Virus record (IMG/VR): IMGVR_UViG_3300030116_001840
Coordinates: 1 to 32,474 of that record
Source: a virus
DNA length: 32,474 nt
Strand: one strand, 5' to 3'
Under the pieces are notes generated by a model. That model ran no database searches and was not told where the DNA came from. It saw only the letters and a program-made list of their open reading frames with translations. Positions within the stretch are counted from its first letter, which is position 1. The number at the start of each line of letters is the position of its first letter. The translations under genes were made by a program, and so were the position numbers. Of this stretch, positions 8,027 to 9,451 are shown in pieces.

Positions 8027-8401
8027 CTATGTCAGGTCAATAGAAACTTTAATATCTCCTGCAACTTGTACTTGGGAACGGTCTATAGGTTTATATCCAG
8101 CTCTATCAAGCAAATCCTTACTCGCTTCGAGCTGAACGTACTCAGACTTAGCATTAGAAGATAGCCTACGAACTGTAGCCAGCGCACTTGTAGCACTCAA
8201 TCCAAAAGTCTCATTCATCCTCTGCATCATGTACTGTTGCACGTGTGGAGCTTTCAATGCTCTGTGTGCGCTTACTCTTCCGCTATCGCCTTTAGCGTAA
8301 CCAGCTTTGATAGCTGCATCTTTTATGCTAAGTCCTTCTGCTACGAGTGTATCCACTAGAGCTATCTGTTTATCTGTCAGCTTTCTATCTGCTGGGAGCA
8401 T
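8027..8401 (-). CDS. terS: terminase small subunit
   Basis: A 124-residue DNA-recognition subunit of the packaging machine. LTDKQIALVDTLVAEGLSIKDAAIKAGYAKGDSGRVSAHRALKAPHVQQYMMQRM (residues 8-62) is the classic Terminase_2-type helix-turn-helix opening. ATSALATVRRLSSNAKSEYVQLEASKDLLDRAGYKP follows as the oligomerisation part. It is the first leftward gene after the divergent control region, with AAGAAGG upstream of the ATG. It lies more than 2 kb from TerL, separated by about ten tiny genes, which is unusual. The stop codon overlaps a C-rich tract. Confidence 0.9.
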   Translation of the reverse strand: MLPADRKLTDKQIALVDTLVAEGLSIKDAAIKAGYAKGDSGRVSAHRALKAPHVQQYMMQRMNETFGLSATSALATVRRLSSNAKSEYVQLEASKDLLDRAGYKPIDRSQVQVAGDIKVSIDLT

Positions 8402-8449: not shown

Positions 8450-8473
8450 TCTACTAACATATAGCTAAGAGTT

Positions 8474-8481
8474 TGACGTCA
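8474..8481. promoter_or_regulatory. palindrome TGACGTCA, candidate operator
   Basis: A perfect eight-base palindrome that shares both half-sites (TGACG and CGTCA, overlapped) with the spaced palindromes at 8589-8601 and 8610-8622. Its position in the divergent control region suggests a third regulator-binding site for leftward transcription. Confidence 0.4.
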
Positions 8482-8530
8482 TTCAAATAGAAGGATTGAG
8501 ATACTGACTAGCCATTGTTTTATCTACTAG

Positions 8531-8553
8531 CCCCCCTCTCCCTCTCTCCCCCC
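8531..8553. other. homopyrimidine tract (23 bases)
   Basis: An uninterrupted C/T run on the plus strand: six C, then alternating CT clusters, then six C, nearly mirror-symmetric. The complement is a G/A run. Such tracts can form triplex or G-quadruplex-like structures. A related C-rich tract preceded by the same CTACTAG lies at 8003-8026. No gene covers this tract. Confidence 0.5.
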
Positions 8554-8588: not shown

Positions 8589-8601
8589 TGACGTGGCGTC
8601 A
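8589..8601. promoter_or_regulatory. operator 1, TGACG-TGG-CGTCA
   Basis: A perfect five-base inverted repeat with a three-base centre. With 8610-8622 it forms a direct repeat of GTGACGTRGCGTC spaced 22 bases start to start, about two DNA turns, as expected for cooperative dimer binding. It lies next to the leftward -35. The two HTH proteins at 10939-11374 are the obvious candidate binders; that link is inference. Confidence 0.55.
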
Positions 8602-8609
8602 TTAGTATT

Positions 8610-8622
8610 GTGACGTAGCGTC
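8610..8622. promoter_or_regulatory. operator 2, GTGACGTAGCGTC
   Basis: The second copy of the 13-base GTGACGTRGCGTC element, differing from the first by one base. GACG-TAG-CGTC is a perfect inverted repeat. It faces the rightward transcription unit and may control it. No convincing -35/-10 pair for the rightward promoter was found; TATGGT at 8633 and CTATAA at 8647 are possible -10 elements. Confidence 0.5.
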
Positions 8623-8720
8623 TACTACTACATATGGTATTGACTACTATAAAAGCTTTCATGGTCTTTCGTTGAAGTTCTGCCAGTTGACTCACCTCTA
8701 TGTTCTCTCTGTTTCACTGC

Positions 8721-8860
8721 GGCCACCTCGCATTCCTCCTTCGTTGCATCGGGCAGAAACAGTTTGCAAGGTACGCTTCGCTTTGCTCCTTGCAAACTGC
8801 AAGCACCTTTGGGCGTTTCTGCTCCGTGCATCTCCTCGTCATTGCGAGGGTGGTCCTCGC
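8721..8860 (+). ncRNA. strongly folded leader RNA of the early operon, possible switch
   Basis: Three nested inverted repeats fill the space before the first early gene. The outer arm 8721-8732 pairs with 8843-8855 (one bulge and one wobble). The middle arm 8745-8760 pairs with 8815-8830 (16 positions, one mismatch, two wobbles). The inner arm 8760-8771 pairs perfectly over 12 bases with 8788-8799. Two competing hairpins exist: GCGAGG (8844-8849) with CCTCGC (8855-8860), and CTTGCA (8789-8794) with TGCAAG (8798-8803). TCTCCT at 8831-8836 is complementary to the AGGAGA ribosome site at 8868-8873. The stretch is GC-richer than its surroundings, and the open frames on either strand look like products of the palindromes. 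It could be a regulatory leader, a small RNA or a captured palindromic repeat. Confidence 0.6.
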
Positions 8861-8881
8861 TAAGAACAGGAGAACCTAGAA

Positions 8882-9265
8882 ATGACTAAACTTGTTGAAC
8901 TTAAACTACAGACCATTCAGTATCACAACGGTGATAACATGGATTACTTAATGACTAGTATGGCGCGAGACGCCTGTTACACTAGCTACAACTCACTTAC
9001 CTACAAGAAGAAACAGATGGCAGATACCATCACTGACTTCGAAACTGCGGTAACAGAAGGACGCGACATGAGAGCCGAAGCTATCACTCGCAAGCTTGAC
9101 AACATGGAGATCGAACTCGAACATCTTGCAGAACGACATGACGCTGATTGTCAGGTCTATGCAATCATCACAGATGGTCAAGCTTGGACACCAGAACGCA
9201 AGCAACGCAACGTCAAAGGCGCACTTGCTAAGAAAGTTGCAGAACTCAAGAAAAGGGTAGCGTAA
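8882..9265 (+). CDS. first early protein, unknown function
   Basis: A 127-residue soluble protein (MTKLVELKLQTIQYHNGDNMDYLMTSMARDACYTSYNSLTYKKKQMADTI...). A long charged helical middle (DMRAEAITRKLDNMEIELEHLAERHD) precedes a lysine-rich C-terminus. No family is recognised. AGGAGA lies nine bases before the ATG. The long folded leader ahead of it suggests strongly controlled, probably immediate-early expression. The stop codon lies in the loop of a perfect 7-bp hairpin (9255-9274). A host-takeover role would be typical of the position, but that is inference. Confidence 0.8.
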   Translation: MTKLVELKLQTIQYHNGDNMDYLMTSMARDACYTSYNSLTYKKKQMADTITDFETAVTEGRDMRAEAITRKLDNMEIELEHLAERHDADCQVYAIITDGQAWTPERKQRNVKGALAKKVAELKKRVA

Positions 9266-9274
9266 CAGCTACCC
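9255..9274 (+). promoter_or_regulatory. hairpin around the stop codon of the first early gene
   Basis: GGGTAGC (9255-9261) pairs perfectly with GCTACCC (9268-9274) around a six-base loop that holds the TAA stop. No T-run follows, so it is not an intrinsic terminator. Protection of the 3' end or RNA processing is more likely. From here to 9488 there is no gene; the gap holds the promoter and operator candidates listed below. Confidence 0.5.
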
Positions 9275-9381
9275 ACACCAAGGTTTATGAAGCGATGTAC
9301 CTTGAATATACAAAACATCACTTCGCATACGCTTAGGTCGATGAGAGTAACGTACCCATAGCGATATGTTTTATTAAACCG

Positions 9382-9436
9382 TTACCCAACACCTGAGTAA
9401 GTGTATAAACTGCTCATTTAAAGTGACGTAACGTAA
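9382..9436 (+). promoter_or_regulatory. candidate promoter and operator for the second early operon
   Basis: TATAAA at 9404-9409 could be a -10 box, with a weak -35 (TTACCC, 9382-9387) at a 16-base spacing. Just downstream, GTGACGTAACGTAAC at about 9423 repeats the left half (GTGACGT) of the control-region operators, where a repressor would overlap the start of transcription. The box match is moderate. Confidence 0.35.
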
Positions 9437-9451
9437 CAAATGACAGTACTG

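Follow-up and report, generated by a model that had tools for sequence, protein, structure and literature searches.

A divergent control region between two gene arms

The IMG/VR virus record analysed here (32,474 bases; hereafter the window) is organised in two divergent arms. Leftward genes encode the terminase small subunit (8027-8401), the terminase large subunit, a head-tail adaptor and capsid proteins, and the rightward genes, from 8882 on, include a CII-like regulator, a RusA-like resolvase, exonucleases and an SSB-like protein. A folded element sits between the arms, immediately 5′ of the first rightward gene (gene 1); on its leftward side the first gene downstream is that of the terminase small subunit. 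Among cultured phages, Pelagibacter phage EXVC031P Hodr has the closest terminase (65% identity). The phages that share the element form a large, podovirus-like group; many of them are apparently marine, and gene control in the group has been little studied. A literature search on non-coding RNA in pelagiphages and on phage Hodr found nothing of relevance.

Several short sequences recur around the element. Upstream of it, adjoining the terminase small subunit gene, lies a polypyrimidine tract (GCCCCCCTCTCCCTCTCTCCCCCC, 8530-8553) that about 120 or more IMG/VR contigs from the same phage group carry in near-identical form; when bacterial genomes were scanned with this tract, the only matches were three MAG contigs of mixed taxa, which pointed to no host. 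Operator-like palindromes of the TGACGT..CGTCA type (8471-8484, 8589-8601, 8610-8622 and 9423-9437) precede gene 1 and recur ahead of the gene that follows it. Immediately left of the rod, at 8640-8654, a TTGAC-n-CTATAA box is conserved, with a spacing that does not fit sigma-70; in three relatives (L012, L028 and L033) it takes the form of tandem CATACTATAAC repeats of 11-13 nt.

Architecture of the folded element

The interval 8721-8860 has a GC content of 57%, compared with 39% for the window, and is the GC-richest of all its 140-nt stretches, in agreement with the initial annotation. All three nested inverted repeats described there are present: 8760-8771/8788-8799 (12 nt, perfect), 8745-8760/8815-8830 (16 nt, 81%) and 8831-8849/8855-8873 (19 nt, 79%). 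Among 120-nt windows, the two with the lowest folding energy begin at 8731 (−49.5 kcal/mol) and 8761 (−47.0 kcal/mol), against a mean of −20.2 kcal/mol (sd 6.2) across the window, and 8699-8878 gives the most stable fold of all.

The fold is a rod of about 150-220 bases in which P0, P1, an internal loop and P2 lead to a three-way junction of P2, P3 and P4 (Table 1); the linker CAAG and P4 complete the junction. The junction and the base of the P3 stem are near-invariant in sequence. The tip of P3 is free to vary in length and sequence, and relatives carry long inserts in its place. In P4 a G·U pair is retained on the minus strand where the plus strand shows A·C. The segment 8844-8849 has two possible partners, as the initial annotation had proposed in describing two alternative hairpins: it can pair with 8855-8860 to form a local hairpin (H) or, within 8843-8853, with 8723-8732 to form P1.

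Table 1. Positions of gene 1 and of the parts of the folded element in the window.
Feature	Position	Strand	Content	Basis
Gene 1	8882-9265	+	ORF, 127 aa; first rightward gene	
Outer arm of P0 (anti-Shine-Dalgarno arm)	8699-8713		GTTCTC 8702-8707; CTGTT 8709-8713	Pairs with 8865-8878; minimum-energy folds of both strands
Other arm of P0	8865-8878		Gene-1 Shine-Dalgarno sequence AGGAG 8868-8872	
P1, left arm	8719-8732		CCACC 8723-8727; TCGCA 8728-8732	Covariance alignments A5 and A7, helices 1-2
P1, right arm, with hairpin H	8843-8860		8843-8853; partner 8723-8732	Minimum-energy folds; covariance alignment
Hairpin H	8844-8849/8855-8860		Loop 8850-8854; competes with P1	
P2, left arm	8745-8760			Helix 4: both-sided change in 12 of 12 pairs
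P2, right arm	8815-8830			Inverted repeat; covariance alignment
P3 with loop	8760-8799		Pairs 8760-8771/8788-8799	
Junction linker and P4	8800-8815		CAAG (minus strand: CTTG); small hairpin P4 8804-8807/8812-8815	
Whole modelled structured RNA	8716-8864	−		Covariance model R1; strand from wobble asymmetry

Conservation and covariation in relatives

IMG/VR yielded 34 relatives of gene 1, a search by the P3 hairpin pattern six further contigs, and a search by the upstream polypyrimidine tract about 120 contigs. The first genes of the tract-bearing contigs fall into several families, which may perhaps be remotely related, although a profile comparison (5%) did not establish this. Altogether 77 non-redundant leaders were extracted. 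A covariance model (R1) was built from nine relatives and searched in 78 loci, where it found 37 places with E ≤ 0.001: the window, a seed sequence (168.9 bits), and 36 others, all at related loci.

The initial annotation had named covariation among related phages as the observation on which its proposal should stand or fall, and the relatives do show it. In the R1 alignment 91% of the cells pair, both partners have changed in 37 of the 47 pairs, and covariation scores 0.381, compared with 0.121 for shuffled and at most 0.055 for slid alignments; the alignment is fitted to the structure, so these counts lean towards it. An alignment fitted to the other strand agrees, with both-sided changes in 38 of 47 pairs and a score of 0.298 (0.093 shuffled). 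These covariance-model alignments were used in place of a MAFFT alignment of 15 distant members, in which the outer arms were misaligned and the consensus fold gave only H and P3. The element is therefore a real, conserved rod with covariation, a three-way junction and a competing hairpin, and it belongs, as a conserved structured RNA, to the control region that separates the leftward terminase operon from the divergent, rightward gene 1.

At the gathering score, cmscan matched no Rfam 15 family to the window or to any of 11 related loci; relaxing the threshold to E ≤ 5 returned just WLE3 and CDKN2B-AS, both far under their own cut-offs. DNA and protein searches of GenBank phages with the leader and gene 1 gave no match either. 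As a structured RNA the element is thus strongly supported; Rfam has no entry for it, and it is missing from public RNA catalogues.

The initial annotation also stated that CGTCATTGCGAGG, at 8837-8849, resembles the cores of dispersed palindromic repeats, and raised the idea of a captured host repeat. We regard such a repeat, of the REP-like kind, as extremely improbable: CGTCATTGCGAGG occurs once in the record, where the whole element is single-copy, Rfam gave no match, and CGTCATTGCGAGG belongs to P1 and drifts with its pairing partners in relatives. A dispersed REP-like repeat, which is marked by many copies, was rejected on the single copy in this phage record.

The gene-1 ribosome-binding site and hairpin H

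In 37 of 41 leaders of the gene-1 family the Shine-Dalgarno sequence is predicted to pair more than 100 nt upstream (mean probability 0.80), whereas the same holds for 29 of 150 control genes (mean probability 0.23). The partner, some 160 nt upstream, is conserved, and the anti-site sequences change in step with the Shine-Dalgarno contexts among leaders. The site is thus predicted to be sequestered by a conserved, co-changing helix, as in a translational lock. P0 extends in some relatives past the start codon as far as codon 2-3, and in Pelagibacter phage Hodr (L047, OQ414635.1, 12175-12395) to about codon 11; the inverted repeat at the first rightward gene of Hodr is very long and encloses the Shine-Dalgarno sequence, the start codon and about 11 codons. 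Leaders of the other first-gene families show the lock no more often than control genes (8/33).

Involvement of the gene-1 ribosome site had been suggested from the outset, by way of a local match between TCTCCT (8831-8836) and AGGAGA (8868-8873). Both sequences are present and the site is indeed implicated, but the local match does not hold as the main lock: the relative L003 has GAAGTC at the TCTCCT position and the pairing with AGGAGA is not kept. From the sequences compared, TCTCCT is a clade-specific local alternative.

Most of the 42 family leaders have a hairpin some 36-43 nt ahead of the start codon, and H-type stems in relatives have changed in sequence and still match. In one relative (L015, 2400-2418) a T run comes after H, which there has the look of an intrinsic terminator on the plus strand before gene 1; the window shows no such terminator.

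These observations bear on the possibility that the plus-strand leader alone controls gene 1 in cis, with the long-range anti-Shine-Dalgarno arm blocking translation until the rod is cut or is refolded through H, much as with the hairpin of the lambda N leader. The leader switch of the initial annotation survives in this form as the main rival to the explanation given below, and we judge it unlikely, though worth serious attention. The lock itself and the constant distance between element and start codon would suit it, as would the plus-strand terminators that follow gene 1 in many relatives, the terminator-like H of L015, the Hodr helix that buries the start codon, and wobbles near H that lean to the plus strand. 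The wobbles in P0, P1 and P2-P4 point to the minus strand, however, with zero G·T in P0.

The strand under selection

An A·C mismatch on the plus strand is a G·U wobble on the minus strand, and wobble asymmetry can suggest the strand on which a covarying element works. G-U pairs were disallowed in folding, so that the two strands are treated nearly equally, and single mismatches within helices were counted. In plus-strand letters the helices contain 35 A·C against 5 G·T mismatches, compared with 228 against 214 in shuffles. The excess recurs over the whole intergenic region (44 versus 7; by locus, 25 versus 5), in the rod when the folds of both strands are summed (79 versus 12; by clade, 9 versus 1) and in the other first-gene families (66 versus 28). 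P0 has 19 A·C and no G·T, a count biased by the purine-rich ribosome site. The alignment fitted to the plus strand still favours A·C over G·U (15 columns versus 5), and in columns 9-269 and 14-263 of alignment A7, near H, the wobbles lean to the plus strand. Flanking coding DNA gives A·C:G·T counts of 139:217 where it is rightward-coding and 131:55 where it is leftward-coding, so that composition, with a 2.4-fold A·C excess in the latter, could explain part of the asymmetry; that of the rod has the same sign as leftward-transcribed DNA but is larger.

Relative to its own shuffles, the minus strand folds deeper in 34 of 41 leaders and, when the whole intergenic region is taken, in 33 of 41 and in 28 of 33 from the other first-gene families. 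Locus by locus, covariance models of the plus and minus strands have about equal scores and are neutral on strand. These data suggest that selection probably acts mainly on the minus strand, and the excess of A·C over G·T indicates a fold constrained on the strand antisense to gene 1, as in an antisense regulator. The initial description of the element as the leader of the first early gene is accordingly doubtful.

Constraint on the minus strand is also what a 5′ leader of the leftward late (terminase) operon would show, perhaps one acting in cis on RNA polymerase in the manner of put RNA. The intergenic region is structured on the minus strand in all families, and the terminase small subunit gene comes first downstream. 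We nevertheless think such a leader decidedly unlikely, because no sigma-70-like promoter for a leftward RNA was found at the start of gene 1 and the rod does not resemble put RNAs. The HK022 put RNA is likewise a phage-encoded folded RNA at an operon start, but is about 70 nt long and has two stem-loops (PMC9378689), whereas the element, at about 150-220 nt, is a single rod that includes a three-way junction and does not have this layout.

The wobble test cannot tell RNA from folded single-stranded minus-strand DNA, in which G·T is tolerated too. An element acting at the level of DNA or single-stranded DNA (an origin, a priming hairpin or a cruciform), its minus strand folding during replication, is highly unlikely in our view: the P3 tip varies freely in length and sequence, the tie to the gene-1 start site is strict, and no replication initiator was recognised among the genes scanned.

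Gene 1 and its link to the element

The gene-1 protein has no sequence match in PHROG, Pfam or the PDB and belongs to no named family. Its AlphaFold2 model (pLDDT 90.9) has helices at residues 3-13, 21-58, 62-96 and 114-126, and is predicted to be a helical hairpin of two long antiparallel helices. Structural matches of the model were all generic helical hairpins, among them a lengthened Rop variant (Z 10.2), a seryl-tRNA synthetase arm and UvsY; matches at this level are expected of any helical hairpin and we give them no weight as clues to function.

Whether it works on the plus or the minus strand, the element accompanies gene 1. Viral contigs were scanned with a 15-base core pattern, which on its own gave many matches that the covariance model did not confirm; after filtering by the model, 12 of 65 new loci were kept. 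Each of the ten strongest new matches, found by a search of DNA only, is followed 16-21 nt later by a gene-1 homologue. Conserved synonymous sites or a conserved block inside gene 1 were looked for and none was convincing.

Proposed sense-antisense control of gene 1

We infer a leftward RNA, sense-antisense control and a junction that serves as the sensor. The explanation that we favour, at close to even chances, is that the fold has been selected mainly as a leftward RNA antisense to the leader and start of gene 1, through which the gene would come under sense-antisense control. The minus-strand RNA would be the antisense of the gene-1 leader and start site and would point at the terminase operon. 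On the rightward transcript, the same inverted repeat would close the gene-1 Shine-Dalgarno sequence in P0 and shut translation, and the outer arm of the leftward RNA would itself contain the antisense of the start site. A switch from P1 to H or back would open or close the outer helix, and the conserved three-way junction may be the part read by a protein or ligand.

This explanation is consistent with the covariation in two separately fitted alignments, the wobble asymmetry and the deeper minus-strand folds, and also with the lock on the start site, the cis link to gene 1 and the retention of H in most leaders. Several observations sit less well with it. The negative search for a sigma-70-like leftward promoter at the gene-1 start, the lack of a clear conserved block inside gene 1, the equal scores of the two strand models and the A·C excess of the leftward-coding flank all count against it; the constant 16-21 nt spacing to the start codon, the promoter-like boxes on the left and the plus-strand terminators after gene 1 fit a rightward leader; and the other first-gene families show the lock at control level. 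A more specific version, in which the leftward RNA is at once the antisense of the first-gene start and the head of the late transcript, and its bistable fold sets the early-to-late decision, is quite unlikely. The switch and the small RNA of the initial annotation are both possible, and its structured element with competing folds stands, unlike its captured repeat and its local anti-site.

The element predicts a leftward RNA, a closed start site and a bistable P1/H switch. Were the more specific version correct, the leftward RNA with its conserved three-way junction would be a phage RNA machine of a new class, present across a widespread marine phage group.

Comparison with known systems

In the lambda N leader (nutL, an RNase III hairpin and N), a long structured leader precedes the first gene, a terminator follows, and the start of translation is tied to the fold. 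The element would resemble it in having a long structured leader before the first gene, a terminator after that gene in many relatives, and a start tied to the fold. It differs in that the wobbles favour the opposite strand, the three-way junction is conserved in sequence and the lock comes from the start site itself.

CopA/CopT, FinP/traJ and RNAI/RNAII with Rop are plasmid sense-antisense regulators, to which the element may be likened in the mirror-image folds of both strands over a start site. With RNAI/RNAII-Rop there is the further likeness that gene 1 is predicted to encode a helical hairpin and has the lengthened Rop variant among its best structural matches, although a Z of 10 is common for helical hairpins. 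The phage element also differs from the plasmid systems in its much longer rod and in that no sigma-70-like antisense promoter was found. GOLLD and ROOL are large, ornate bacterial RNAs (PMC12286853). They are known from phages too and are much larger than the element, which is without an Rfam match.

Other structured stretches of the region

A second region of the window, 9201-9400, folds better on the minus strand (−59.7, compared with −36.6, sd 4.4, for shuffled sequences). It ends in a terminator-like minus-strand hairpin at 9255-9274, over the gene-1 stop, and GTGGCGTAAGCCACC recurs in relatives at this stop region. In intergenic regions of the other first-gene families (L063, L075, L129, L139 and L159) a structured stretch recurs near the polypyrimidine tract (GGATGGAAGCCCGAAGGG...).
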